Positions 4,455 to 20,686 of a stretch of DNA of 23,447 bases are shown here, in pieces; the first letter of the stretch is position 1, and each line of letters begins with the position of its first letter. Source of the DNA: a virus; IMG/VR virus record IMGVR_UViG_3300044858_000718, positions 1 to 23,447 of that record. One strand, written 5' to 3'. The notes below the pieces were generated by a model. The model saw only the letters and a program-made list of their open reading frames with translations. It was not told the DNA's origin and ran no database searches. The position numbers were made by a program, and so were the translations under genes.

Positions 4455-7400
4455 ATGAGTAGTACATCTTTTGACATTACCGTCAACACCCAACAAGCCA
4501 TTTCATCCATCTCGAATTTGCAAGGTAAACTCGCTGCGCTCGCGACAAGTGCAGCATTAGTTGAATTTGCAACACTGGCAGATGACATGGCTAGATTGAA
4601 AACTCAATTAACCTCAGTAACTGTAGAAGGTCAGAAAGTTAATGATTTGATGAAGTTAATGCAGAAAGGTGCACTTGAATCAGGTCAATCAGTAGAAGCC
4701 TATGCAGGAACTTATGCTACATTAGCCAATAGTACCCGTGATTTGGGTGTGACACAAAAAGAATTAGTTGGTATTACCACTACCGTAGCACGTGCTATGA
4801 CTTTAGGTGGTAAAAGTACTAATGAAACCGCTGCAGCGTTAAACCAATTAGGTCAGATGTTTGGTAAAGGTGCTGCTGATGGTGAAGATCTTAACACTGT
4901 ATTAGAAAACTCTACTATCTTAAGTCAGGCCTTACAAAAACACTACCATGCTACGGCTGGTGCGTTGAAAGTCATGGCATCTGAAGGTAAGATTACTTCT
5001 AAAGGTATTGCAGAATCTATTAAAGAAGCCAAAGGCGCAGTAGATGATGCATGGGCTAAAAGATATATAACCGTGGCTGAGAGTATGAACGTGGCTAAGA
5101 CCACTGCAATGCAATTGGCTGATAAGTTCGCAACTCAAATGGACTTAGGTCGTGCATTGGAAATCATTGTCTATAAGTTAGCCGCTACTATGGTTAATTT
5201 TAGTAATGCAATGCATACACTTGGTACTATCTTAAAGCCAATTGGTTTGGCGATAATGGTCATCTACTTTCCTTTCATGAAGTTGATTGAAGCCATTTGG
5301 GGTGGTATTACTCTATTGGCAGGTCCATTCATGGCATTTGCACGTGGACTATTAACTGCATTTGATGTCATTCATGTAGGTGTGATGACTGCCATTGCGA
5401 GTTTCGAATCATTCTCTACTACTGTACTTGGTATGTTAGAGTTAGATGGTGTTTGGGAAGCCATGCAAGGTGCATTTGTTATGGCAGTTGATGGTATGGC
5501 TAAGATACTTAGTATTTTCGGTTTTGAAATCGGTGATGTTATACTAGGTACTGAAACATGGGGCGCATACATCACTACCCTAGGTAAGAAAATAGGTGAA
5601 TTCTTAGGTATTACTACACTAATTTACGCTTTCAAAGAAGCGTGGTATAGTGTAGTTGATTTGTTTGGTGGTGATACCAAAAAGAATATTGATGAATTGA
5701 AAAAAGCCCAAGACGATTATGCCAAATCAATGGGTTTTGATACTGTTGAAGCCATGGATAAAGCATTGGCTGCTTCAGGTGAACTATCAAAAGCACAAAT
5801 GGATTTACGTGCTGCTGGTACCAAAGCCGTAGATGATATCAAAAAAGCCTACGAAGATCTACATAATTCTGCAACTAAGTCTACTGCAGCCATTGGGTTA
5901 AGTCCTGAACAACAAACCAGAATTAGTGCATCCCTAGACGTTATTAACAAATACCGTGATGCAGTACGATCATTACAAGTTGCTGCTGAAAAAGACATTG
6001 CAGCCAATGCAAATGGTAGTGAAGAGTACAAAGCACGTACACTAAAAGAACTCGCTACCGCAACTGATAACCTTAAAAAGAAAATGGAAGATGCATTGGT
6101 AGTAACTAATGCTGATGCCGAAGCCCAGATTGCAGCCACACGTGCATATGAAAGTAAAACCTTTGCGTTAACTCAATTATACGCACAACAAGACGCAATT
6201 GCAAAGTTAAATCAAGAAACTGCTAATGTAGGTGTATCTAACTTACAAAAACAATACAATGGTATTGAGAATGCGGCTAATTCAGCCTATGAAGCCCAAT
6301 TAAGAACTATTGCGGCTAATAGAGGTATTACTGTTGCACAAATACCACAAGCAGAGAAAGATACTGTACGTGCAGAAACTGTTAAACTTATCAAAGAACA
6401 GAAAGATGCACAACTTGAACTCAATAACGCACAGAACGCAGACTCATTAAGTACTCAACTACAGAAATTGAGAATTGATCAAGATGAGAAACTTCTTAAG
6501 TTAAATCAAGATGCCAATAACATTGGCTTACCAACTTTAACTAGAAGATACAAAGAGATTGAGGCTGCTGCTGAAAAGGCAGAACGTGCACAACTCAATG
6601 CGCTCGCTGCCGCTCGCGGCGTTGACGTTGGAGATTTACCTGCTGCTGACAAATCTGCAATCCATGAAGCCAATGCTGCAAGTATTGAAAAAGAAAAGAC
6701 TGCAGTAAAAGCATTACATGATGCAGAAGTTAAGAATGATATGCGTACTGCCATGTTAAAACATCAGTATGATCAGCAGGCTAGTCTTCGTAAACTTCAA
6801 GATGATATTAATAAAACCACACTATCTGAATCTGCCAAAGCATACTATGATCTTGGTGCAGCAGCAGATGAAGCAGCCAAAGCAGAAATCAGAGCAGCTG
6901 CTGAGAAAGAAGGTATTAAACCAGAAGACTTACCCATTGAACAGGTCAAAGCCTACTACGATGCAAACTTCAAAGGTATTGATGAGTTAATTGCAAAAAC
7001 ACGTGAATTACAAGCAGCCCAAGAAGCACAGATGGCTGTAGCATTTGCAACCAAAGAAAAAACCGCAGCAGCGGCTAAGTTACAGCAGATTCAAGATGAG
7101 ACTGCCAAACTCGGTATGACTGAGATTGAGAAAAAGTATTATGATATTGATGCTGCTGCAAGAGCCAGTGCTGAGTCAGAGCTCGCAGCTGTCGCTGCTC
7201 GCCAAGGTGTAGCACGTGATCAGTTAGATGCAGAGACTGTTAAAAAATACTATGAGGCTGCAACTGCTGGTACCAACCAATTAAAGGTAGCCACTGGACA
7301 AGGTTATGCTCAATCACGTACATTTGCAACGGGTTGGAAGCAGGCATTAAATAGTTATACCGAAGATGCTACCAATGCAGCCAATCAAGCCGGTCGTTTA

Positions 7401-8231
7401 TTCAAAACAACCACACAAGGAATGGAGGATATGATCGTCAAATTTGCCAAAACCGGTAAGTTTGAATGGAAAGGTTTCCTCTCTAGTATAGTCGAAGAAC
7501 TACTCAGAAGTCAAATCACAGTTTTACTTTCTAACATTTTAAATGGTGGTAAGTCAGGTGGTAATGGTTTGATTGGTGGTATTGCAGATATGCTTGGTTT
7601 AGGTGGTGATTCAGGTATTGGTGGTGCCATTTCAAGTATGTTTGGTGGTAGTGGTTCATCTGGTGGTAGTTCAGGTGGTAGTGGAGTATTGGGTACCTAT
7701 AATAACCCAATGTATGTAATAGTGGCAGGATCACAGGCAGGTAGCACAATGAATAGTACAGCGAAGAAAGGTAGTAGTGTTTTAGGTAGTGTGGTTAATG
7801 CAGTAACTAAACCAGCAGCAAGTGGTACATCTTGGTGGGATGACATAACAGGTGGTTTCAGTGATTTCTTCACTGGTAATACAGGTAAATCATCTTATGG
7901 TGGCAGCAGTTATGGTGTTCTACAAAGTGATCAGAATTCTGGTTCATCCATCTGGGATGATGTTGGTGATTTCTTCGGTGGTCTATTTGCAACGGGTGGT
8001 AACTTACCTGCTGGAAAATGGGGTATTGCAGGTGAATCAGGCCCTGAATTAATTCGTGGTCCAGCATCCGTGTCATCAGCCAGTCAAACTGCCTCAGATC
8101 TTGGTTCAACCAATGTAACATACAATATCAATGCAGTAGACGCACAGAGTTTCAAAGCAATGATTGCAGCAGACCCAAGTTTCATCTATGCAGTAACTAT
8201 GCAGGGTGCACGTGGTATGCCTAAAAGATAA
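4455..8231 (+). CDS. Tail tape measure protein
   Basis: At 1258 residues this is the second-longest gene and the expected ruler of tail length; it follows the chaperones with a one-base gap. N-terminal residues about 1-220 look like the TMP_2-type region (VNTQQAISSISNLQGKLAAL and an Ala/Thr-rich helical core). Residues about 225-370 include several hydrophobic stretches (for example LAIMVIYFPFMKLIEAIWGG), which could help form a membrane channel at DNA ejection. Residues about 575-955 hold four degenerate tandem repeats of about 93-105 residues. The region near 955-1015 (GRLFKTTTQGMEDMIVKFAK, then EWKGFLSSIVEELLRSQITV) resembles the lambda gpH C-terminal domain, followed by a Gly/Ser-rich linker (about 1025-1090) and the typical end (LPAGKWGIAGESGPELI). 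At the common 1.5 Å per residue, the tail would be about 190 nm. Confidence 0.93.
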   Translation: MSSTSFDITVNTQQAISSISNLQGKLAALATSAALVEFATLADDMARLKTQLTSVTVEGQKVNDLMKLMQKGALESGQSVEAYAGTYATLANSTRDLGVTQKELVGITTTVARAMTLGGKSTNETAAALNQLGQMFGKGAADGEDLNTVLENSTILSQALQKHYHATAGALKVMASEGKITSKGIAESIKEAKGAVDDAWAKRYITVAESMNVAKTTAMQLADKFATQMDLGRALEIIVYKLAATMVNFSNAMHTLGTILKPIGLAIMVIYFPFMKLIEAIWGGITLLAGPFMAFARGLLTAFDVIHVGVMTAIASFESFSTTVLGMLELDGVWEAMQGAFVMAVDGMAKILSIFGFEIGDVILGTETWGAYITTLGKKIGEFLGITTLIYAFKEAWYSVVDLFGGDTKKNIDELKKAQDDYAKSMGFDTVEAMDKALAASGELSKAQMDLRAAGTKAVDDIKKAYEDLHNSATKSTAAIGLSPEQQTRISASLDVINKYRDAVRSLQVAAEKDIAANANGSEEYKARTLKELATATDNLKKKMEDALVVTNADAEAQIAATRAYESKTFALTQLYAQQDAIAKLNQETANVGVSNLQKQYNGIENAANSAYEAQLRTIAANRGITVAQIPQAEKDTVRAETVKLIKEQKDAQLELNNAQNADSLSTQLQKLRIDQDEKLLKLNQDANNIGLPTLTRRYKEIEAAAEKAERAQLNALAAARGVDVGDLPAADKSAIHEANAASIEKEKTAVKALHDAEVKNDMRTAMLKHQYDQQASLRKLQDDINKTTLSESAKAYYDLGAAADEAAKAEIRAAAEKEGIKPEDLPIEQVKAYYDANFKGIDELIAKTRELQAAQEAQMAVAFATKEKTAAAAKLQQIQDETAKLGMTEIEKKYYDIDAAARASAESELAAVAARQGVARDQLDAETVKKYYEAATAGTNQLKVATGQGYAQSRTFATGWKQALNSYTEDATNAANQAGRLFKTTTQGMEDMIVKFAKTGKFEWKGFLSSIVEELLRSQITVLLSNILNGGKSGGNGLIGGIADMLGLGGDSGIGGAISSMFGGSGSSGGSSGGSGVLGTYNNPMYVIVAGSQAGSTMNSTAKKGSSVLGSVVNAVTKPAASGTSWWDDITGGFSDFFTGNTGKSSYGGSSYGVLQSDQNSGSSIWDDVGDFFGGLFATGGNLPAGKWGIAGESGPELIRGPASVSSASQTASDLGSTNVTYNINAVDAQSFKAMIAADPSFIYAVTMQGARGMPKR
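6180..7320 (+). repeat. Four tandem repeats of about 100 residues in the tape measure protein
   Basis: Units start near residues 575, 669, 768 and 873. Each begins with a helix of type L-x-x-[QD]-x-[ED]-x-x-K-L-x-Q-[ED] (for example AIAKLNQETANVG, KLLKLNQDANNIG, SLRKLQDDINKTT, KLQQIQDETAKLG), continues with Y-x-x-I/L-x-x-A-A (YNGIENAANSA, YKEIEAAAEKA, YDLGAAADEA, YDIDAAARAS), then a small-residue helix and a turn (RGITVAQIP, RGVDVGDLP, EGIKPEDLP, QGVARDQLD). The protein repeat is clear while the DNA copies are well diverged. Confidence 0.8.
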
Positions 8232-8242
8232 GGAATAAAAAG

Positions 8243-8623
8243 ATGAGTTTTCAATTTGTAATTGACAGAGCAGAATCAATATCAGTAAACCGTAGAAAGA
8301 TGGTAGCCTCAACGACAGCACGGAGCGGACAAGTCCGTGCGGTTTCACGTGGAACACAACCAAAGATTTACACGGTGAAACTACCAGACGGTATACCATG
8401 GACTGAGTTAAGAACCTTAATCACTGCGGCTGAAGCCCTAGATAAGTTTACCAGTTCAACTATCACAATTCCATATGCCAAATTCCCATGGTACTACGGT
8501 AATGTAAACCCCGGAACTAATGAATCTTGTGTGGTTTTATGCACTACATTTCCACAATGGACTCTAATGGCATACAATCAAGTGGCTTGGGATAGCCCAT
8601 TTGTTTTTACAGAGGTAATCTAA
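8243..8623 (+). CDS. Minor tail protein after the tape measure gene (gpM-position)
   Basis: A 126-residue protein that follows the tape measure gene with an 11-base gap containing AAGGA. It is beta-rich with several Trp/Tyr residues in the second half (KFPWYYGNVNPG; FPQWTLMAYNQVAWDSPFVF). Position matches the first tail-tip protein (distal tail or lambda gpM slot), which caps the tape measure end of the tube. The stop codon overlaps the next start (TAATG). Residues about 25-35 are encoded by a GC-rich patch with a 7-bp inverted repeat (8318-8340), unlike the surrounding sequence. I recognise no specific family, so the role is inferred from synteny. Confidence 0.6.
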   Translation: MSFQFVIDRAESISVNRRKMVASTTARSGQVRAVSRGTQPKIYTVKLPDGIPWTELRTLITAAEALDKFTSSTITIPYAKFPWYYGNVNPGTNESCVVLCTTFPQWTLMAYNQVAWDSPFVFTEVI

Positions 8624-9288
8624 TGGCCACTCTTGCAGACTATCGAGCAGTACAAAGTAATATCTTTGTAAAACTAACCATTCAAGAATATGCAAGTGAT
8701 TATGGTCGTGCATATACACCAAACATACTTACATTCTCTGATGATACGGTTACTAGAAACATTAATGGTGTAGATTACCTACCACTAGGTAAATTAATGG
8801 GTATTAGTCAAACATCCAGTGATTTAAAAGTCACTGGTAATCAATTGAATATTACCATTGCAGGTGTACCTAACTCAAGTATATTCGAAATTGTTAATAG
8901 TAAGATCAAAACCAGTGCAATTGAAGTATTCAGAGCTTTCTATAACCCAACTGATGGTACGCTATTACCAATAACACCTAATCCAATTGGCCGATTTATT
9001 GGTATTGTATCTAATTACTCATTAGAAGAGCAGTGGGATAGTTACAATAAGTCTAGTACAAATACCTTAATCCTTGTATGCTCAAGTCAGGTAGATATTC
9101 TAGGTAAGAAGATTGCAGGTAGATGTACATCACCATCTTCTATGAAGAAATTCTTTCCAAACGACGCATCGATGGATAGAGTACCAGTATTAGAGAAGGC
9201 TACCTTCGATTTCGGGAAACAAAGTTCATCCACTGGCTCGGCTACCGCCTCGCAACAAAGTGGTTTTGATTTTATTAATAACTTATAA
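8623..9288 (+). CDS. Tail tip / hub-associated protein (gpL-position)
   Basis: A 221-residue beta-rich protein whose start overlaps the previous stop (TAATG). The body (INGVDYLPLGKLMGISQTSS, then VTGNQLNITIAGVPNSSIFE, RFIGIVSNYSLEEQW) resembles tail-tip proteins that form the ring between the distal tail protein and the central hub. The later stretch GRCTSPSSMKKFFPNDASMD parallels the Arg-Thr ... Phe-Phe-Pro-x-Asp motif found in tail proteins of the DUF2163 or gene-transfer-agent type. Cys residues at about 153 and 167 could bind an iron-sulfur cluster as in lambda gpL, but only two or three Cys are present, so this is doubtful. The last 25 residues are Ser/Gln-rich and probably disordered. 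Confidence 0.65.
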   Translation: MATLADYRAVQSNIFVKLTIQEYASDYGRAYTPNILTFSDDTVTRNINGVDYLPLGKLMGISQTSSDLKVTGNQLNITIAGVPNSSIFEIVNSKIKTSAIEVFRAFYNPTDGTLLPITPNPIGRFIGIVSNYSLEEQWDSYNKSSTNTLILVCSSQVDILGKKIAGRCTSPSSMKKFFPNDASMDRVPVLEKATFDFGKQSSSTGSATASQQSGFDFINNL

Positions 9289-9298
9289 GGAATAGCAG

Positions 9299-10042
9299 AT
9301 GGCAAGTTTTTTAGATGACGTGAGTGGAATGCTTGGAAGCGTGTTCAATATGGACAATGCTATCTCAGCAGCGAAGATTGCAGGGTTAGGTTACCTATTA
9401 AGTCAATTACAACCGGATGATAAACCGGTAAACAAAAAAGGTACACGTGAACAAGTTGATCCAGACACTACGCACCATATTCCAATTGTGTATGGTACCT
9501 CAGTAACTTCAGGTATTGTGTGTGATGCCGTTTTAGCAGATGACAGCATGACAATGTGGTATTGTTTGGCTATTTGTGAATCAACTGGTCCTGTGTTCAG
9601 TACAGGTGCAGATAGTCAGATCGGTATTTCAAGAGTATATTGGAATGAAAATACAATTAATTTTAAAAGTGATGGTATTACTGCTGCCAGTTTTACTGAT
9701 GCAAATGGTAATACTTCAACTGATATAGCGGATCTTGTTCAGTTCTATTGCTACTGTGGTGGTAGTGAAGCAAAGTATCAAGTGTTCCCAAGTGGAGTTG
9801 ATGGTACAGAGAAAAACGCATGGGATGTTATGCCCAAATGGACTACTAACCATTTGATGTCAAGTTTATGTTTTTGTATAGTAAAGGTTAAATACAATAG
9901 TACCAAGTCAGTAACAGGATTGGGTAATGTCAAATTTAAAGTACAAAATACACTAAGCAAAGCCGGTGATGTGGTATACGACTACATGACCAACACACGA
10001 TATGGCTGCGGGATTGCAGAGCAGGAGATTTATCAAGCATGA
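9299..10042 (+). CDS. gpJ-like tail hub, N-terminal part (split)
   Basis: A 247-residue protein with AAGGA 8 bases before its ATG. An N-terminal helical region (ISAAKIAGLGYLLSQL) is followed by HIPIVYGTSVTSGIVCDAVL and MWYCLAICESTGPVFSTGAD, which match the start of gpJ-type central hub proteins (pattern pVvYGxxxxxG ... lalceG). The protein ends GDVVYDYMTNTRYGCGIAEQ, the conserved D-x-x-T-N-x-R-Y-G-x-G-I segment that normally lies about one quarter into a full-length J, so it stops inside the family fold. The rest of the family homology resumes in the gene at 14981. The stop overlaps the ATG of the next gene (ATGA), and the following frame appears to continue the J sequence. Confidence 0.78.
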   Translation: MASFLDDVSGMLGSVFNMDNAISAAKIAGLGYLLSQLQPDDKPVNKKGTREQVDPDTTHHIPIVYGTSVTSGIVCDAVLADDSMTMWYCLAICESTGPVFSTGADSQIGISRVYWNENTINFKSDGITAASFTDANGNTSTDIADLVQFYCYCGGSEAKYQVFPSGVDGTEKNAWDVMPKWTTNHLMSSLCFCIVKVKYNSTKSVTGLGNVKFKVQNTLSKAGDVVYDYMTNTRYGCGIAEQEIYQA

Positions 10043-13000
10043 GAAGCATAACAGATTTAAACGGAATTGGTTTGAACACAAACGACTATTCCGATAACAG
10101 AGACCCAAGTGTAACATTCAATGTTACATCACCAATAAATCAAGCATTATCATGCTATCAAGGTGCACCTCATACATTACCAGTTGGTATTAATGTAACC
10201 GAAATAATCAATTACCCACTTGTTGGTATGGAATATATTATCGACTGTAGCAACACCTCTCTTGAGTGTTACGTACAGTGGAGTTCATTACCCGAGACCT
10301 GCGTATTGACTATACCACAACAAAACGTATGGAAATTAACTGGGATCACTTCTGCGGTTGATTGGAATGCGGTGAAAAGTCCAACGGTGATTATCAATGA
10401 AGGTGTGGAAGAAGATTTCGTGTATGATGTCACTATCAACTATCTTAGCACAAGTAATAAATCATGGACTGTTTCAGTACATACCCTGCTATACGATATT
10501 TTAAGTGATGCTACTGAGTTTGCATTCGAAGATGGTATTGAACAATTAGTCACTGGTCATCCTTTGATCTATGATTATAGCCAAACCCAGACTAACTGGA
10601 CAGTAACTGTAATACCAAGTATCACTAGCGGTGTCGTCACAGGGGTTAGAACAACAGGTTTTGGTGGTACTTCATCATACAACAGCACTACGCAGCAATT
10701 GACTATTACCGGTTCAAAAACCCAAGTGAATAGTCATTTGAATTCGATGTATTATACGTTCTCACCTACAAATACACTAGATATAACACTTACGTATTTT
10801 GCAATTAATGAAACGTCTACTAGATCTAAAACTGTAATACAAAGTCTAATTTGCGAAACTGTGAACTACTTGTCATTTGCCAGTGGTAATATGACATACT
10901 CAGAAGACACGCCATTTGCTTTTACTGGTTTACCCACTATCACTGATAACCATATAACTTATAGTAGTGTTGGTAATACACAAAAAGTCGTATCAATTAA
11001 TCAAAACTATGATACTCAATGGACTAGCAATGGTAATGTTATAACATCTACCACAGAATCCAAATTTGGTGGATCTAGTATCTACTTTACATCACTTTAC
11101 AATCTAGGCAAAGCAGCAGAAACAACTGCATTGGGTGGTGATATGTCTGGTGACTTTACGGTAGAACTATGGATAAGATTAAGTTCATTTACCGGTAATG
11201 ATAAAGGGTTAATCACCCAACGAAACTATTCTAGTAGTGGTACTGGTACATGGGGTTTAGCCGTTAGTTCTGATAGAATCTTACGATGGAATGATTTGCA
11301 AAACATAACAGTAATTAATACAGCAGCCGGTGTATTCAACTGGGATACATGGACTCACGTAGCCGTAGTTCGTACTAGTGGTACTGTTAAAATATACACA
11401 AATGGTGTTCAACAAGCATCTGGTACAATGAATACGAGTTTTGTTACTACCCAACCTTATCGATTAGGTGATTGGGATTCTAGTGGTAGTAATGAATTAG
11501 TCAATAGTTTTTTAGATGAGGTTAGAATCTCAAGTGTTGCTAGATATACCAGCGCATTCACACCACCCACAGTAGCATTCACAACTGATGCATTTACGAT
11601 TTCATTGCTACATGGTGATGGATCAAACGGTGGACAAACATTCTACGAAGAAGCCTATGGAGTAGCCATTTCTAATACTGTATCTAAAATTGGTGGATCA
11701 TCCATTGCACTAACCGGTGGTAGTATTACTGTACCATATTCAACCGATTGGAGATGGTATGATGGTAACTTCACCTGTGAATATTGGGTGTATAATGTAA
11801 CGAATAGAGGTACAGGTGGTGGTTCTGATTGGAGTAGACATTTAGGAATGATGGAACCTACCGGTAGTAGTAATTATTGGTCTTTTGGTACAAACTCAAT
11901 TGGTAAAGCCACCTTCTATTGGTATTCTGGTACTACTAATGCATTGACTGGAACTACTACGATACCATTAAAAACATGGACGCATATCGCAGTAACATTT
12001 ACCAAATTATCAAATACCTTAAACATTTACGTAAATGGTGTATTAGATGCATCGGTGGTAGTTTCCAATACTCCACAATTCTCTACATCAGTTCCATTAA
12101 CACTTGGTAGATATTCGGGTGCTGTAACTAATTGCCATGTTGATGAAGTAAGACTATCTAATATTGTACGGTACACTGGTACATTTACTCCATCAACTAC
12201 TGTGTTTGTAGCAGATGATAACACAAACCTATTACTACATGGTGATGGAACAAATGGTGGTGTTATATCTGATTCTAGTGTTACCTATGCAGGACCTAGT
12301 TACACATATACCATAACATCAAGTGATACAGCCTCGCTGCGCTCGGCGACATCGAGTGGAACCGGTGGTACATTCACGTATTCAAATGGTGTTATTACTA
12401 TGATTGGTAATAAAGCACAAGTTAATAGTAGATTAACGACTATCACTGCCACTCCTGCATCTGATTACACTTCCAATTTTACTATTACCAGTACGGTAGT
12501 TACCCCAGCGAATAAAACGAAATCGGTTAATCAAACAATTAGTTGTGTTGGTGTTCATGATGAAATTACTAATATAGTTGGTGATAGATATTATGATGCA
12601 AATTTAACCAATTTGTTATTCCCAACAAATATACCACAAATAACCGATTTAGATACAAGTTCACCATCATATACCATAACATTGACATCAGCCATTGGTA
12701 AATTTGGTACCACGACGGCGAATGCTGTTACTAATTATACATTCACTGGAACGAAAGCGCAAGTCAATGCGTTGTTTTCAACAATAGTATTTGTTCCTAA
12801 TACGGATATTAGTAGTACAAGTAGTTTTGTATATACGCAAACCAAAGGTTCTGTATTACAAGTTACTTCAACCAATGCGCTAATTTGTTCGTGTTATACA
12901 GTAACACCTGCCACTAATCCAGCAGACGGTACCGTATCAATGAGTGAAGGTGGAACGTATACAATAGATCCAGTTATAGCAATATCAAGTATAAACTCAG

Positions 13001-14967
13001 CATTGAATAATGCTTCGTTTGTTATAGATATTAGTACGATACCAAATGCCATTTTGGTTTGGAGTGCATTAGATGCATCAATAACCAAAACAGTAGTCAA
13101 TGGTGTATATACTTTAACTGGTATTGATTCGATTGCTAAATGGAATAGTGCTAAGAATCCAGTATTAAACTTGGATAATGTTTATAATGGAACTGGTAAT
13201 ATCATTTGTTCAATCAAGTTTCAAGGTTCTAATGGATTAATTACTAGATCATTCAAACGAGTAGCCACTATCAGTGATGTATATCCATTATCAACAGTGA
13301 CATCACCAAGTAGTTATTATTCAGGTAGTAATACCACTATTGCATTTCCGGTTTTATATGATAATGGTTATCAAAATCCAACATGGACAGTAAACATTGT
13401 ACCAACAACAACTGCTGGTATTACTTGGACAGTTGGTGGTACGGGTGGAACAGTAACTCAATCTGGTAATCAATTATCTATTGTTGGAACACCAACCCAA
13501 GTTAATAGTAGATTAAGTAATGTATTGATTCGTGGTGATCAGTATTATGATTATACATATACCCTTAATATAAATGCAAGTAATAATATCAATACAGAAA
13601 CTGCCACTAGATCAAAATCGATGTATTCAAATAATGCGACTGTTTCATCGGCAGTTGGTGGTAATACCACATATTCACTGAATACTACTAGCCCAATTGT
13701 AAATGCGCCTACAATCACTACTACAGTAACTGGTAATTGTACATATACCGCAGTTGCATCACCTAGTACTGCTGGATTTGTTTATTTTAGTGAGTATGGT
13801 GCGAGTGGTGTTTTATCATCGACTTACGCGGTGTTTAATGCAGGTACTTACCCATCTGGGTATATTAGTGGTCCATTTGTAGTATCACCTGATGGAAATT
13901 CATGGGGTATTCAATACAAATATACTGCATTTATTGGTGGTTTAGTAGCAAGAGTTGTTTATAACAATGGTTCTACTATAGCAGTGTATGATAATTCATC
14001 TAACATCACATCAACCGATCCATTTGGTGATAGTATAGATGTTAGTAATTCGCGTATGGTTATTTCTGACAAAGCACATCCACACAACTCAAATACTGGT
14101 TGGATTTATATACCAAATACCAGTTTTTATCCATCTGCAACTGGTAGTTTCCAATCAGTCGCTACTGGTTCTTCATTTGTGGCTGGGTCTTTATCAGGTA
14201 GAGCATATTTCTGGAAACGTGCTACTATGGAAGCACAACCACCGGATACAACGGGTACCGCACTTAATAGTATTGTATTAACTGGTACTGCTGAATATAT
14301 GCGATTTGTATATAGTTCAACGTATGGCGCTTATGATGATATTATGATTAAGACCAATGACAATAGAGTTTTTAGATATAACGTAACAAATCCAACTACT
14401 GGTGTGTTTTCACAAGCAGTTAGTACAGCATCTGGTGTAGTAGTCAATTGGTTTAATGCCACTAATGATGGTAGTAGATTTGTAACATGTAGTTCTGGAA
14501 CTGTCAAAGTTTATATCCAATCTGGAAGTAGTTATGTAGTTGAGCAATCAATCACTGCTGCAGGTATTGCAAATTTTGGTACCTTGGATAATTCATGTGC
14601 AATTACAAGTGATGGTACATATATTGCAGTAGGTGATTATGCTGTGTATAAACGAACTGGTAGTACATGGGCATTTTACGCCTATATCAATACTGGAAGT
14701 TATAACGCATCACGTAACTGTTACATCACAACGAGTGGAACTGGTGTTAAAGTGTTAGTTGTAGAATCGCCTAATATCAAAACGTATACTATGTCATTGG
14801 CATATGCTACCACAATGACAGATACAAAAGCAAATATAAATGCTGCAATCCCATCACTTAAATTCAAACCAGCAACTGGACAAACTGGTTCGTTCTCATT
14901 GATATATCAGATTACAGCACCGGATGGTAAACAGAGTTTCAGAAATCAAACCATCACACAAGTATAA
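10039..14967 (+). CDS. Giant modular tail fibre/adhesin inserted between hub halves (1642 aa)
   Basis: The first 28 residues (SITDLNGIGLNTNDYSDN) look like the linker of a gpJ hub. After that the protein is a chain of beta-sandwich-like units. Type A (W-S-x-L ... L-T-G-I ... W-N-[AS]-[VA]-K-[SN]-P) occurs at about 64-147 and 986-1085. Type B, marked by a G-x-x-x-Q-V-N-[SA] helix, occurs with that motif at about 225, 790, 904 and 1150, and a decayed copy (DTKANINAAI) at 1595. Two LamG/concanavalin-like domains (about 322-515 and 520-720), each ending DEVR[IL]S and R-Y-T, lie inside the second B unit. An FG-GAP/propeller-like region (about 1250-1585, with DPFGDSIDVSNSRMVISD) lies inside the last. 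Both insert types commonly bind carbohydrate or surface ligands, so this is a likely host-recognition fibre. AGGAG lies 11 bases before the ATG. Confidence 0.8.
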   Translation: MRSITDLNGIGLNTNDYSDNRDPSVTFNVTSPINQALSCYQGAPHTLPVGINVTEIINYPLVGMEYIIDCSNTSLECYVQWSSLPETCVLTIPQQNVWKLTGITSAVDWNAVKSPTVIINEGVEEDFVYDVTINYLSTSNKSWTVSVHTLLYDILSDATEFAFEDGIEQLVTGHPLIYDYSQTQTNWTVTVIPSITSGVVTGVRTTGFGGTSSYNSTTQQLTITGSKTQVNSHLNSMYYTFSPTNTLDITLTYFAINETSTRSKTVIQSLICETVNYLSFASGNMTYSEDTPFAFTGLPTITDNHITYSSVGNTQKVVSINQNYDTQWTSNGNVITSTTESKFGGSSIYFTSLYNLGKAAETTALGGDMSGDFTVELWIRLSSFTGNDKGLITQRNYSSSGTGTWGLAVSSDRILRWNDLQNITVINTAAGVFNWDTWTHVAVVRTSGTVKIYTNGVQQASGTMNTSFVTTQPYRLGDWDSSGSNELVNSFLDEVRISSVARYTSAFTPPTVAFTTDAFTISLLHGDGSNGGQTFYEEAYGVAISNTVSKIGGSSIALTGGSITVPYSTDWRWYDGNFTCEYWVYNVTNRGTGGGSDWSRHLGMMEPTGSSNYWSFGTNSIGKATFYWYSGTTNALTGTTTIPLKTWTHIAVTFTKLSNTLNIYVNGVLDASVVVSNTPQFSTSVPLTLGRYSGAVTNCHVDEVRLSNIVRYTGTFTPSTTVFVADDNTNLLLHGDGTNGGVISDSSVTYAGPSYTYTITSSDTASLRSATSSGTGGTFTYSNGVITMIGNKAQVNSRLTTITATPASDYTSNFTITSTVVTPANKTKSVNQTISCVGVHDEITNIVGDRYYDANLTNLLFPTNIPQITDLDTSSPSYTITLTSAIGKFGTTTANAVTNYTFTGTKAQVNALFSTIVFVPNTDISSTSSFVYTQTKGSVLQVTSTNALICSCYTVTPATNPADGTVSMSEGGTYTIDPVIAISSINSALNNASFVIDISTIPNAILVWSALDASITKTVVNGVYTLTGIDSIAKWNSAKNPVLNLDNVYNGTGNIICSIKFQGSNGLITRSFKRVATISDVYPLSTVTSPSSYYSGSNTTIAFPVLYDNGYQNPTWTVNIVPTTTAGITWTVGGTGGTVTQSGNQLSIVGTPTQVNSRLSNVLIRGDQYYDYTYTLNINASNNINTETATRSKSMYSNNATVSSAVGGNTTYSLNTTSPIVNAPTITTTVTGNCTYTAVASPSTAGFVYFSEYGASGVLSSTYAVFNAGTYPSGYISGPFVVSPDGNSWGIQYKYTAFIGGLVARVVYNNGSTIAVYDNSSNITSTDPFGDSIDVSNSRMVISDKAHPHNSNTGWIYIPNTSFYPSATGSFQSVATGSSFVAGSLSGRAYFWKRATMEAQPPDTTGTALNSIVLTGTAEYMRFVYSSTYGAYDDIMIKTNDNRVFRYNVTNPTTGVFSQAVSTASGVVVNWFNATNDGSRFVTCSSGTVKVYIQSGSSYVVEQSITAAGIANFGTLDNSCAITSDGTYIAVGDYAVYKRTGSTWAFYAYINTGSYNASRNCYITTSGTGVKVLVVESPNIKTYTMSLAYATTMTDTKANINAAIPSLKFKPATGQTGSFSLIYQITAPDGKQSFRNQTITQV
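11000..12290 (+). repeat. Tandem LamG-like domain pair with a third truncated start
   Basis: Two consecutive domains of about 195 residues share F-T-[VC]-E-[LY]-W, W-T-H-[VI]-A-V, I-Y-[TV]-N-G-V, a Leu-Gly-Asp/Arg strand and the ending D-E-V-R-[IL]-S. The sequence CTACATGGTGATGGA (11609-11623), encoding LHGDG at the start of the second domain, recurs at 12234-12248 (encoding LLHGDGTNGG), where a third domain would start but only about 15 residues remain. This points to tandem duplication and loss. Confidence 0.75.
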
Positions 14968-14979
14968 GGACTAAAAGAT
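14967..14979 (+). promoter_or_regulatory. Ribosome-binding leader, copy 2 of the 13-mer
   Basis: AGGACTAAAAGAT directly precedes the ATG at 14981. It shows that the hub C-terminal gene has its own strong translation start rather than depending on read-through from the fibre gene. Confidence 0.65.
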
Positions 14980-14980
14980 A

Positions 14981-16825
14981 ATGTACGATTTTTCAATAAA
15001 TGGTGTAGTAGATACCGGACAATCATGTATGAGTAACTTAACAAAGTTATTCACTGCATGCGGTGCATGGATAACATACGACATCTCTGCTGGTAAGTGG
15101 TCATTTACCATCAAAGAAGCCGGACAATCTGTATTTGATTTCAACGATTCTAACCTAATTGGTGGTATATCAGTTTCGTCAAATGGGATTATGGACCTAT
15201 ACAATAAAGTAACCATCTCTTATCCACACAAGGATTTAAGTGATAAGACCGACCAAATTGATGTCGAGATTCCAACTGATAAAAGATACCCTGATGAAAT
15301 CGATAACACCTTATTGATAGATACCAATCTAATCAATGACCCAATCCAAGCGCAGTTTATGGCAACAGTTGAGTTGAAACAGAATAGGTTAGATACCCTT
15401 ATCAAGTTTACCAGTGATTATACTGCCATTGGTTTAAAGGCAGGTGACATTATCACAGTTACCAATGCTCTTTATGGGTATAGTTATAAGAAATTTAGAA
15501 TCACTTCAATACAAGAAGATGACACTGATGTAATCTCGGTGTCTATCACAGCAATGGAATACGATGATTCTGTTTACAGCACCTCTGGGTTGATTTATAC
15601 TAAAAGAGATGAGAAAACTGGTATTATTCCCAAATCAGCGAATACGGTTTTGGTAGCACAAGACCAATCTGCTACTGCGTTGGCTGCAGCAAACGGATTT
15701 ACAAACAACCCAGTTGCGTTGAATCAACTGGCAAATACATTGACTAACTCTGCCGGTATTGCTAGTATATGTGCAAGTGGTGGAGGTGGTAATAATTCAA
15801 TGCAAATGACCACATCTGCTGATGTTGCGGATGCCATTCAAATCATCGATGATGATATTATGACTACCAGAGAAGGTAGAACCTTATTCAAAATTACATG
15901 GAACGTAGAAAACTCAGTTTGTAATGGATCGCGTGGTCCAGATTTCGATGAAGATACTGATTTCATCAAAGTGTATGTATATATTGTAGATCCTGCAACT
16001 GGTGATGTAATAAATGCAAATTTCTCAGGTGGTATGGGTGTAAATTCGTGGACTGACTTTGTAACTGATACAGATGGTTTATTAACACCTAACAAAAAAT
16101 ACAAACTCAAAGCATATTATACCTATTACAGTCCAGAAAAACAGGCTAGAGCACTTGCTGCTAGTGTATCAACTAACATGTATCTGAGTATGACGTATTT
16201 TGCATTTACCTTCAATGCACCAACAACAACGGATCCAGATGGTAGTAATGTACCCAATTCAGTAACAGTAAATTCGCCTGATACAGTTACCATTAAAATG
16301 GCATGGGCATCTCCGGGTCGAGATCTTGATTTTAAAGCGATTATTAGATCACCTGACGTTGGTCAAATACTACCAGTTGGTTATAGAGAACCAACGGTAA
16401 TCAATAGATACCCTGAATTTGGTACTGGATATATCTATTGGGGTGGAGATATTGCAAATGAATCCCCCGGTTATGAAAGTATTCTACTTGACATCGCAGC
16501 ACTGCGTGCACTATCACCATCAACGCGATACATTATGGTAGATCTGTATGCGATCTGGGGTGTAAGTCAGACATTAACTCCATCAGTGAGTGTTGGTCCA
16601 TTAACTGCTACTGCTACGTTCTGGAAAGGTGGTACACCAGTATTAACTGGTCATGAATACACTAACGCAAATCCAACTAGTACTTCGGTAATGAAAACCA
16701 CTGGTGCATGTACAAGATACTACACGGCAGCTCCATATGGATCTGAAACTGGTCAATTCATGAGTCATTTCATTTATGACATACAAACAGGTGTTTCGTA
16801 TTTCTCTAACACGACACCATTCTAA
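14981..16825 (+). CDS. gpJ-like tail hub, C-terminal part (split)
   Basis: A 614-residue protein beginning MYDFSINGVVDTGQSCMSNL, which in full-length gpJ-type hubs follows shortly after the R-Y-G-x-G-I segment found at the end of the 247-residue protein. Residues about 25-45 (LFTACGAWITYDISAGKWSF) and about 125-185 (LKQNRLDTLIKF, then LKAGDIITVTNALYGYSYKK, FRITSI) match the hub core. Residues about 290-614 are beta-rich, perhaps fibronectin-like, and have a Gly/Pro/Thr-rich pattern; this part likely projects from the tail tip. The gene has its own AGGA site. No in-frame upstream extension exists, so a separate polypeptide is made, and the hub is probably assembled from two chains. Confidence 0.78.
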   Translation: MYDFSINGVVDTGQSCMSNLTKLFTACGAWITYDISAGKWSFTIKEAGQSVFDFNDSNLIGGISVSSNGIMDLYNKVTISYPHKDLSDKTDQIDVEIPTDKRYPDEIDNTLLIDTNLINDPIQAQFMATVELKQNRLDTLIKFTSDYTAIGLKAGDIITVTNALYGYSYKKFRITSIQEDDTDVISVSITAMEYDDSVYSTSGLIYTKRDEKTGIIPKSANTVLVAQDQSATALAAANGFTNNPVALNQLANTLTNSAGIASICASGGGGNNSMQMTTSADVADAIQIIDDDIMTTREGRTLFKITWNVENSVCNGSRGPDFDEDTDFIKVYVYIVDPATGDVINANFSGGMGVNSWTDFVTDTDGLLTPNKKYKLKAYYTYYSPEKQARALAASVSTNMYLSMTYFAFTFNAPTTTDPDGSNVPNSVTVNSPDTVTIKMAWASPGRDLDFKAIIRSPDVGQILPVGYREPTVINRYPEFGTGYIYWGGDIANESPGYESILLDIAALRALSPSTRYIMVDLYAIWGVSQTLTPSVSVGPLTATATFWKGGTPVLTGHEYTNANPTSTSVMKTTGACTRYYTAAPYGSETGQFMSHFIYDIQTGVSYFSNTTPF

Positions 16826-16839
16826 AAAGGAAAACCACA

Positions 16840-17238
16840 ATGACAGTAAATGTATCAGATTACCTAAAATTCAGACTATTAACCACCGCATCGGGTAATT
16901 CAAGTTGGAATCTTGATAATGCGCGATATATCTGGTTATTCAATGATGTCGATAACCAACTAGAATTCCAATTAAATCAAGGCGCATCTTACTTGGCTGC
17001 TGAACTAACCGCATTGGATTATGAACCAAAAGAAGTTACGTTTAATGGTGAAGGTAGTAACCATGCAGTTTCATTTCCACCAGCACAATCTAATTGGGGT
17101 CGAATTACCCATATAGCCGTGTTCGGTCAATACAATCAGCACTGTTTTTTTTGGAAACGATTACCAGAACCAATTGAGATATTTACAGGTGATATAATCA
17201 GTTTCCCATACAATTATCTTAAGATTACCTTAACCTAA
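16840..17238 (+). CDS. Small virion protein, paralogue of the next gene
   Basis: A 132-residue beta-rich protein with AAGGA about 9 bases before the ATG. Its second half, with NWGRITHIAVFG followed by an aromatic strand (CFFWKRL), P-I-x-I and a closing beta strand (NYLKITLT), lines up with the same region of the 138-residue gene that follows (AWGTISHVAIMD ... LYWGAV ... KPIDI ... NNITISLN). Both belong to a widespread family of small phage tail or fibre-associated proteins. The N-terminal half differs and lacks the ASNYLENK motif, so this copy has diverged. It probably decorates the tail tip or fibre base. Confidence 0.6.
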   Translation: MTVNVSDYLKFRLLTTASGNSSWNLDNARYIWLFNDVDNQLEFQLNQGASYLAAELTALDYEPKEVTFNGEGSNHAVSFPPAQSNWGRITHIAVFGQYNQHCFFWKRLPEPIEIFTGDIISFPYNYLKITLT

Positions 17239-17287: not shown

Positions 17288-17330
17288 AAATACATATACA
17301 GCCTTACTCAATCTATTCATGGAGAATCAA

Positions 17331-17747
17331 ATGACTGCAGCATCAAATTACTTAGAAAACAAGATCTTAGACCATACTTTACGTGTGGCTTCTTTCACAC
17401 AACCAAGTGCACTTTACTTGGGTTTATTCACAAACGCATCTTCTAATGCCGCTTCTAACTTAGAAGCAGGTACATTGACAGATGAAGTAAGTACATCTGG
17501 AACTGCTTATCAACGCCAAGCCATTACCTTCGGTGCGGCAAGTGGTGGTAGTTCAGCCAACAGCGCAACCGTGACCTTCCCAGTCTGTGCTGGCACTGCG
17601 TGGGGCACAATCAGCCACGTGGCTATTATGGATGCACAAACATCAGGTAATGTCTTATATTGGGGCGCAGTAACCACTGCCAAGCCAATTGACATCGATG
17701 ATACCTTCCAAGTTTCAACAAACAACATTACTATTAGTTTAAACTAA
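17331..17747 (+). CDS. Conserved small tail/fibre protein (ASNYLENK family)
   Basis: A 138-residue protein. I place the start at the ATG at 17331, not the in-frame ATG at 17319, because GGAG (17321-17324) is well placed for 17331 and the family normally begins M-x-A-S-N-Y-L-E-N-K. The sequence TAASNYLENKILDHTLR, an A-L-Y-L-G-L-F-T strand, YQRQAITFGAASGG and AWGTISHVAIMD form the known pattern of a small virion structural protein found across many tailed phages. Its exact role is unknown; it is usually next to fibre genes. A strong terminator follows immediately, so this gene may have its own transcription unit. Confidence 0.75.
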   Translation: MTAASNYLENKILDHTLRVASFTQPSALYLGLFTNASSNAASNLEAGTLTDEVSTSGTAYQRQAITFGAASGGSSANSATVTFPVCAGTAWGTISHVAIMDAQTSGNVLYWGAVTTAKPIDIDDTFQVSTNNITISLN

Positions 17748-18780: not shown

Positions 18781-19109
18781 TGGCTAATTCATATAAAATC
18801 TTAGGTCAGGTAGTGCCTTCAGCGGCTACTGCAACCACCTTATACACAGTACCTGCATCAACATCTTCAATCATCAGTACCCTATCAGTTTGTAATCAAA
18901 ATTCAACAGGTGTTTCAGTGAGAGTTGCAGTGAGACCTGCTGGTGCGGCTTTGGATCCAAAACATTATGTTGTTTTTGATTCATTCGTAGCAGGTAATGA
19001 TACTCTATTCTTAACGCTTGGTATATCATTAGCTACTACAGACATAGTTACAGTTTATTCAAATGTTGCAAACGTATCGTTTAATGCATTTGGTACTGAG
19101 GTAGTCTAA
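18780..19109 (+). CDS. Small beta-rich virion protein
   Basis: A 109-residue protein coupled to both neighbours by TAATG overlaps. It starts MANSYKILGQVVPSAATATT and is almost wholly beta (LYTVPAST, ISTLSVCNQN, VRVAVRPAG, DTLFLTLGISL, DIVTVYS). Similar small proteins of the form 'K-x-L-G-Q-x-x-P-x-A ... L-Y-T-V-P' are common in phage fibre operons and are thought to be virion-associated, perhaps as fibre connectors or caps. No enzymatic motif is visible. Confidence 0.65.
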   Translation: MANSYKILGQVVPSAATATTLYTVPASTSSIISTLSVCNQNSTGVSVRVAVRPAGAALDPKHYVVFDSFVAGNDTLFLTLGISLATTDIVTVYSNVANVSFNAFGTEVV

Positions 19110-20686
19110 TGTCAGTCAAAACACTGAAAGAAAGTAATATCACGAGTAAGTCTGGTATTAGCGAGAACAGACATAATTGGGTAAGACCAAGTGATTGGAC
19201 ACCAATGCCAACGATTGGTGAAAATGAAAATAAGATTGCCGCGCTCTTTGCTGTAATGCCATCAAATTACTCAGATGTTGGTAGTCAATTTGCCGCATTT
19301 TCATGCAACGTTAGTTCTGGATCTTATTACGTTGATTGGGGAGATGGTACAAATAATACATATTCTACTGGTGTAAAAGCGGAACATACGTATGAGCCTG
19401 CTAATATACCATCAGCAGTAACTACTCGTGGTTATAAAACTGCTCTGATTACCGTTACTCCAGTTACTAGTGGTGCTACGTTTATTTCATTTTCTATACT
19501 GGCTCATACAAACCAGAGTAGTATTTCTCCACGTGCATTTATTGATATTATTGCTAATACTACTTATAGTGGTGCTTCAATAAGTGTCGGTGGTACGCAA
19601 GCAACTACGCGCTTACTAGAAAGAGCCTTATTCAATTCTAATTTCAGAATAACTTCAGGTGCATTTAGCTCATGCAATTCGTTACAAGTATTACCATCAC
19701 AATTGGTATTTGCAACATTGACCGGTGGGTATGGATACCAAACATTTGCAGATTGTTTTGAATTGGAATATATTCCATCTTTAGTGAATTTCAATTTAAC
19801 CGCTGCAACGCCATCACTTACGTTAACCAATCTTTTTTCAAATTGCTACAAATTAAAAGAGATTCCGTATTTTGTAATACCAGATAATGTTGCACCGATT
19901 TCTACATTTTCAAATTGTTATTCAATCACCACGTTACCAGCATTAAATTTTAAGATAACTGGTGCTGCAACAAGTACCTTTCAAAATTGTTATAATCTAA
20001 AAGATACTGGTAAAGCCACCTTTGATTTTACTAATTGCACGAGTGTTAGTGCCATGTTCCAATCGTGTTACGTATTAGAGAAATCACCATCATTAGCATC
20101 AATAACCGCAGCATGTACATCAATGGCTTCTACATGGATAGATTGTAGGAAACTTATAGAAATACCACCATTGGGTAATACAAGTGGTGTCACCACATTC
20201 CAAACTACATTCTCTGGATGTATTACGTTATCTACGGTTAATAATACTAATATTAATATTAGTGCAGCAACTACACTAACAGGTATGTTCAGCGGTTGCG
20301 CTAATTTAGTAGATGTATACTACCCATTCACTGGTACTTTTAAAACCACTGGTTTAGCAGCAGGTTGTTTTAATCAAATTTTTGGTATATCACAAGGTTC
20401 TATTAACAGAATAGTTATTAGTCAATCGTTTCCACCTGCATCTAGTGGTGCTACAACATCTCCTGCATTCCCGGGTTATTGTAGATTAACAGAACTAGAT
20501 TGGCCAGGTATTGGTCTTACATTCTCGATTGCAAATAACAATTTATCAGCAGTTCAATTAAATTCGATTTATTCAAGTTTGGCTTCGGGGGTAACTGGTA
20601 AAACCATAACTGTAACCGGTAACTGGGGTACTGCTAGTGATAATCCAAGTATAGCCACTGCAAAAGGCTGGATTGTAACTGGTTGA
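19109..20686 (+). CDS. PKD plus BspA-type leucine-rich-repeat adhesin
   Basis: A 525-residue protein starting in a TAATG overlap. Residues about 22-50 (NWVRPSDWTPMPTIGENENK) lead into a PKD-like domain with the signature YVDWGDGTNNTYSTG near residue 76. From about 165 to 450 there are at least nine copies of F-x-x-C-x-x-[LI]-x-x-[IL]-P (for example FSNCYKLKEIP, FADCFELEYIP, FQSCYVLEKSP, WIDCRKLIEIP, FSGCITLSTVN), the BspA/DUF285 leucine-rich repeat, with one conserved Cys per turn. The end (AKGWIVTG) is typical of this group. BspA repeats in surface proteins mediate binding; here the protein is a likely host-recognition or decoration factor on the tail. Its in-virion location is inferred from its place in the fibre operon. 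Confidence 0.78.
   Translation: MSVKTLKESNITSKSGISENRHNWVRPSDWTPMPTIGENENKIAALFAVMPSNYSDVGSQFAAFSCNVSSGSYYVDWGDGTNNTYSTGVKAEHTYEPANIPSAVTTRGYKTALITVTPVTSGATFISFSILAHTNQSSISPRAFIDIIANTTYSGASISVGGTQATTRLLERALFNSNFRITSGAFSSCNSLQVLPSQLVFATLTGGYGYQTFADCFELEYIPSLVNFNLTAATPSLTLTNLFSNCYKLKEIPYFVIPDNVAPISTFSNCYSITTLPALNFKITGAATSTFQNCYNLKDTGKATFDFTNCTSVSAMFQSCYVLEKSPSLASITAACTSMASTWIDCRKLIEIPPLGNTSGVTTFQTTFSGCITLSTVNNTNINISAATTLTGMFSGCANLVDVYYPFTGTFKTTGLAAGCFNQIFGISQGSINRIVISQSFPPASSGATTSPAFPGYCRLTELDWPGIGLTFSIANNNLSAVQLNSIYSSLASGVTGKTITVTGNWGTASDNPSIATAKGWIVTG

Follow-up and report, generated by a model that had tools for sequence, protein, structure and literature searches.

Tail fibres are usually thought to be attached by dedicated adaptor domains or adaptor proteins, and genes lying in two parts with another ORF between them are familiar as fractured genes with split inteins. 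The tail tip of phage lambda illustrates that hub domains can be distributed over several colinear genes (gpL, gpI and gpJ), with gpI joining gpJ by beta-sheet augmentation and gene I lying between L and J, where T5 has a plug domain (PMC10721106). Hubs of more than one chain have also been described for RcGTA, with the hub protein gp13 and the megatron gp15 (PMC10721106), and for JBD30, with gp50 and gp53 (PMC11445458). In T5, pb3 is a single chain, with the central fibre pb4 located after the C-terminal end of the hub (PMC10038345). The closest cultured relative of the locus described here is gpJ of Methylophilaceae phage P19250A (KX815270), one chain of 1099 aa.

The locus lies in a 23,447-bp IMG/VR virus fragment (the window, i.e., the whole stretch that was analysed), which carries a siphophage-like module with scaffold and major head protein encoded. 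The N-terminal hub piece (hubN) is preceded by two small tail genes with the tape measure gene upstream of both, which is the gene order expected for a gpJ/pb3-type hub. The three ORFs listed in the preliminary description, two hub pieces with a 4.9-kb fibre gene in its own frame between them, are present as given there, and the features considered below are as follows:

4455..8231, plus strand: tape measure protein (PF20155, E 2e-39; PF09718, E 2e-18)
8623..9288, plus strand: 221-aa tail protein directly upstream of hubN (PHROG 2048 tail protein, E 3e-15)
9299..10042, plus strand: hubN, 247 aa (28% identity to P19250A gpJ residues 4-244, E 6e-22; profile match to T5 pb3)
10023..10027, plus strand: AGGAG, Shine-Dalgarno-like site for the fibre, within the last hubN codons and 11 nt 5' of the ATG
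10039..10042, plus strand: ATGA overlap of fibre start codon and hubN stop codon, read from the sequence
10039..10098, plus strand: bridging segment of the hub at the fibre N terminus, MRSITDLNGIGLNTNDYSDN, a motif common to nearly all of the clade's fibres and to intact-hub junctions
10039..14967, plus strand: fibre/adhesin, 1642 aa (PF13385, E 4e-30; Ig-like folds by Foldseek)
14965..14970, plus strand: TAAGGA, the fibre stop followed by the hubC Shine-Dalgarno site (GGA), read from the sequence and alike in most relatives
14981..16825, plus strand: hubC, 614 aa (30% identity to P19250A gpJ past the gap, E 6e-21)

When compared to the described systems, this arrangement is like the lambda tail tip in being a colinear multi-gene hub with an intervening gene, a close parallel in principle; however, the lambda breaks concern HDI/HDII and the plug, whereas the break here falls inside the gpJ-equivalent, where a long fibre gene carrying hub sequence intervenes. 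The fold is shared with T5 pb3 according to Foldseek and profile matches, although the corresponding loop of pb3 is fibre-less (PMC10038345). Both hubN and hubC map to P19250A gpJ, which has a loop of about 10-15 residues at the site of the window's fibre. RcGTA and JBD30 have two chain kinds in the hub core, as here, but they are split at HDI or the HDII insertion without an internal fibre, and the window break lies at neither place. Unlike in fractured genes, no intein or homing endonuclease was found, and the intervening ORF is structural and holds part of the hub. The preliminary description knew of no named precedent, a view that has to be narrowed: multi-chain hubs are already known and named, with breaks at other places, and no description was found of a break inside the gpJ-equivalent at HDIII or of a fibre bearing the hub segment that the two pieces lack. 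No paper describing a split hub gene was found in the open-licence PMC literature.

Identity of the hub pieces

The hubN chain starts with an N-terminal helix region (plug-like by position), continues with the conserved IPIVYG...TRYGCGI stretch (HDII/HDII-insertion side) and terminates 8 residues past the GCGI motif; it is 89% identical to the corresponding chain of IMGVR 3300044655_000344. Its end reads ...MTNTRYGCGIAEQEIYQA* and hubC begins with MYDFSINGVVDTGQ..., the motifs quoted in the preliminary description having been correct. Residues 1-210 of hubC correspond to the remaining hub (HDIII/HDIV side), and residues 211-614 form a C-terminal extension. In a tblastn search of cultured phages, both pieces matched the P19250A 'host specificity protein J', hubN at record positions 14252-14977 (gpJ residues ~4-245) and hubC at 15059-15673 (from residue ~273 onward), so that the matches are adjacent and non-overlapping, with 27 codons separating them.

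Besides, hubC alone matches T5/DT57C pb3 from residue 526 (526-780, E 2e-12), and a joined-family profile built from 71 relatives spans the junction in both pb3 (264-717, E 1e-30) and lambda gpJ (271-488, E 1e-6). The break position corresponds to about residues 297-320 of lambda gpJ and about 485-526 of pb3, between the HDII-side and HDIII-side parts. L031, an intact sister hub of 505 aa, was modelled by AF2 (pLDDT 86, pTM 0.83); the model contains the HDII-HDIV hub fold, and in Foldseek searches of the PDB it matched T5 pb3 (E 1e-21), lambda gpJ (E 4e-19) and also the DT57C, T1, RcGTA, JBD30 and Chi hubs; the window pieces are linked to L031 by homology in the alignment. The identity of the two pieces as one gpJ/pb3-type hub can be considered secure because the sequence, profile and L031 model matches to pb3, gpJ and other hubs agree. 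The earlier proposal that the 247-aa and 614-aa proteins are adjacent parts of one hub family is thus borne out by the P19250A, pb3 and gpJ matches, and no second or intact copy of the hub was found in the 23.4-kb window, nor in a set of eight split contigs (14-33 kb), all of these sequences being fragments.

The 221-aa protein encoded directly upstream of hubN is a candidate HDI or gpL-like partner and may provide HDI in the manner of lambda gpL. HDI is absent before residue 60 of the L031 model. A sequence search for a solved relative of the 221-aa protein returned none.

The fibre gene and the hub segment at its start

About 25 hub residues, forming a helix and a short strand, are missing between hubN and hubC; in P19250A this stretch reads TTSLTALNTYSNQTITYT..., and in the L031 model the bridging segment comprises a helix (262-272), a short strand (275-276) and a loop (277-283). 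Nearly all intervening ORFs open with an M-N-S-L-x-x-L-N...Y-x-D segment (MNSLTELN...YTDxR in other fibres). A profile built from 21 fibre starts was searched in 51 intact hubs and gave a best match in 48, which lay at the junction in 31 hubs, against about 3 expected, and elsewhere in the other 17; the junction region makes up about 6% of the hub protein, and every strongest match (>5 bits) fell there. The binomial value of 9e-26 overstates the case, since related hubs were counted as independent. The segment being short, its position and pattern are what argue for homology with the hub.

The clearest evidence comes from five split contigs that lack a fibre (L009, L133, L134, L142 and L143), which carry the segment at the start of hubC, running on into the hub (MKSLTELNTFSAQSVAYADQGTGAQTLANRYQINGVIDT). 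Because the segment is continuous with hub sequence in these contigs, the fibre insertion site can be placed in the loop that joins the short strand to the RYxING strand, at about residues 314-320 of lambda gpJ on the HDIII side. The two-chain hub of the preliminary description is therefore to be replaced by a three-chain arrangement, with about 25 hub residues on the fibre chain. An independent sign that this loop tolerates insertions comes from L038 (8758-10293), an intact hub in which a ~75-residue domain occupies the loop that holds the fibre in the split clade. In the subclade of L013 and L017-L023, hubN is ~23 residues longer (ISRLGLNSYPWI...) ahead of the fibre-start overlap.

The window fibre opens with the hub segment, which is followed by tandem Ig-like beta-sandwiches, a pair of LamG domains (PF13385) and further beta-rich repeats, and it probably functions in host binding. 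Its first 320 residues were modelled by AF2 with pLDDT 90, and Foldseek placed the N-terminal domains of this model with Ig-like adhesin modules. Within the model, residues 1-20 form, at pLDDT about 70, a short helix spanning 4-10, and from residue 21 a beta-sandwich follows with pLDDT about 97; a helix of modest confidence beside a tight sandwich would be expected for an arm that folds onto a partner. The suggestion that the fibre may be anchored at this point of the hub gains from the hub segment fused to the fibre, the anchoring itself being the likely consequence.

The complete intervening ORFs of the clade measure about 415 to 1747 aa, and Pfam content varies between intervening ORFs (LamG, Gly_rich_2, FG-GAP, BNR-like); in L099, L100 and L114 the first intervening ORF terminates prematurely, through a frameshift or a second ORF. 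Mean identity among 50 distinct loci was 40% for the first 28 fibre residues, 27% for residues 29-150, 20% for residues 151-300 and 21% for the last 200. Moreover, correlation with hub distance was r 0.72-0.79 for the first 150 fibre residues and r 0.37 for the last 200. These sequence comparisons indicate that anchor and hub are inherited together and that the distal fibre is swapped more freely. The loop is a natural insertion site, conserved in the clade, where adhesins differing widely in size have been exchanged.

Distribution of the split arrangement

Viral contigs were searched with hubN profiles, yielding 80 loci and then 80 more. The distant relatives (L030-L085) mostly have single-ORF hubs, and those nearest to the window are split; intact single-ORF hubs were found in P19250A and about 50 viral contigs. 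The split-clade set comprised 100 loci on 96 distinct contigs (L095, L159, L160 and L168 are repeats), and the order hubN, fibre, hubC that had been noted in the window recurred at 75 of them, corresponding to 72 distinct contigs besides the window, that of L002 included. In a further 19 loci (18 contigs) hubC lies past the end of the stretch, five loci are split without an insert and one (L154) is intact. Thus, in the window and 72 further contigs HDII-HDIV is divided between two ORFs with a third ORF between them and is not one polypeptide. Hub identity among the 72 contigs falls to about 36%, the junctions being alike, and the fibre gene between the hub pieces is conserved across the clade.

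The split loci grouped together with 99% SH-aLRT support and the intact L031 at the base, while L154 was placed among the fibre-less split hubs; a single clade for all split rows had an AU p of 0.09 and is compatible with the data. No split hub was detected among 50,697 records of cultured phages with three hubN queries, and the host search in bacterial genome contigs returned no relative. BFVD also contains short hub-like chains from other uncultured phages, which are generically named (A0A6J5L2G0, 257 aa; A0A6J5N921, 406 aa). Annotation pipelines will continue to miss or mislabel such hub halves, as in the case of the 406-aa chain named 'Tip attachment protein J'.

The five fibre-less split loci are divided at an ATGA or TAATG junction, and the two with a complete hubC (L142 and L143) extend 935-1131 aa from the hub match, the median being about 547 aa, as though the C terminus held the adhesin instead. 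In L052 (9752-12933) and L057 (9785-11561) the hub ORFs are interrupted elsewhere, the frames overlapping and no insert being present, and these breaks are probably single-base errors or recent mutations. The gpJ of Pelagibacter phage Kolga (gp15; L006) has a large insert at residues ~212-500, before the YLTNKVYG motif, and so marks a further site where the hub family acquires extra domains.

Proposed assembly of the hub, alternative explanations and neighbouring genes

The explanation that we favour, with a probability of roughly three in four, is that the hub is formed by three colinear chains with coupled translation, the first ~20 residues of the fibre folding into the hub, one per protomer. 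The plug-like and HDII-side part would come from hubN, the next ~25 hub residues from the fibre chain, which would then extend as an Ig/LamG host-binding arm, and the HDIII/HDIV side from hubC, beginning across the same loop. Translation would be coupled through the ATGA overlap and then TAAGGA...ATG, so that near-equal chain amounts would be expected. During tail assembly, fibre residues 1-~20 would most likely co-fold with the hub, taking the position of the covalent segment; the stoichiometry would consequently be one docked fibre per protomer, and a hub without fibre would be incomplete. The exit point of the fibre would be on the HDIII side. Opening of the tube in T5 involves a rotation of HDII and HDIII around the long helix of HDIII (PMC10038345), and a fibre mounted on this side could therefore, as a matter of speculation, couple mechanically to opening. 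We consider somewhat better than even the chances of donor-segment complementation, in which the hub is completed and the tail closes only with a fibre on each protomer, the loop acting as a socket for the exchange of distal domains. If true, the hub segment on the fibre would act as an intrinsic control of assembly, since the hub could not be complete without a fibre, and host binding would be linked mechanically to the hub part that moves on opening in T5 (PMC10038345).

A two-chain hub that needs no such segment, with the fibre start as a left-over of the insertion and the fibre attached elsewhere, e.g., to a distal tail protein, would be in keeping with JBD30, in which the fibres sit on upper baseplate and distal tail proteins (PMC11445458). 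A left-over should decay, yet the first 28 residues are the best-conserved part of the fibre and track the hub tree, and the segment is retained in the five split contigs without a fibre, which makes this reading unlikely. It could also be considered that the gene order is simply that of a gene split by another ORF and that the hub is rejoined, either by self-splicing of an intron containing the fibre or by a split intein as in a fractured gene. Nevertheless, hubC is provided with a start and a Shine-Dalgarno site of its own, and the missing hub segment is inside the fibre; group I/II intron models from Rfam gave no match in 9000-17000 at E values up to 0.1, and no intein domain was matched by Pfam in hubN or hubC. 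Splicing was rejected, having neither Rfam nor Pfam support, and we regard it as extremely improbable. Equally improbable is a chance insertion in one genome or an assembly error: the window is a metagenomic fragment, but the 72 further contigs have identical order and junctions and BFVD holds short hub chains of 257 and about 410 aa, and this explanation was rejected given the conservation of the arrangement in related contigs.

The gene junctions bear on a further alternative, in which a -1 ribosomal frameshift at the ATGA overlap fuses the fibre covalently to hubN in part of the product. In most split loci the fibre start precedes the end of the hubN stop by 3 nt, and in most the fibre frame is -1 relative to hubN and stays open over the 15-99 nt that precede this stop, which speaks for such a fusion. 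However, a stop closes the fibre frame between the hubN stop and the fibre start in L024 and L165, only 3-6 nt are usable for frameshifting in eight further loci, and no obvious slippery heptamer occurs at the window junction. Fibre starts are moreover preceded by Shine-Dalgarno-like sites, with GGAG or a near variant inside the last hubN codons of most relatives. Because the fibre frame is closed or nearly closed in these ten relatives, the sequences indicate that separate initiation is the general mode across loci; frameshift fusion was rejected as the general mode, and a partial frameshift in the window is considered very unlikely.

Directly after hubC, two tandem small genes of one family (PF23140 Gp80, podophage GP4 fiber I) are located at 16840-17238 (E 6e-8) and 17319-17747 (E 3e-38), and L002 likewise has two similar-sized genes 3' of hubC. 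Near the end of the tail region, the window encodes at 19109-20686 a 525-aa protein that matches PHROG 9915 and contains a weak DUF285-like stretch (E 2e-4, under the Pfam cut-off).
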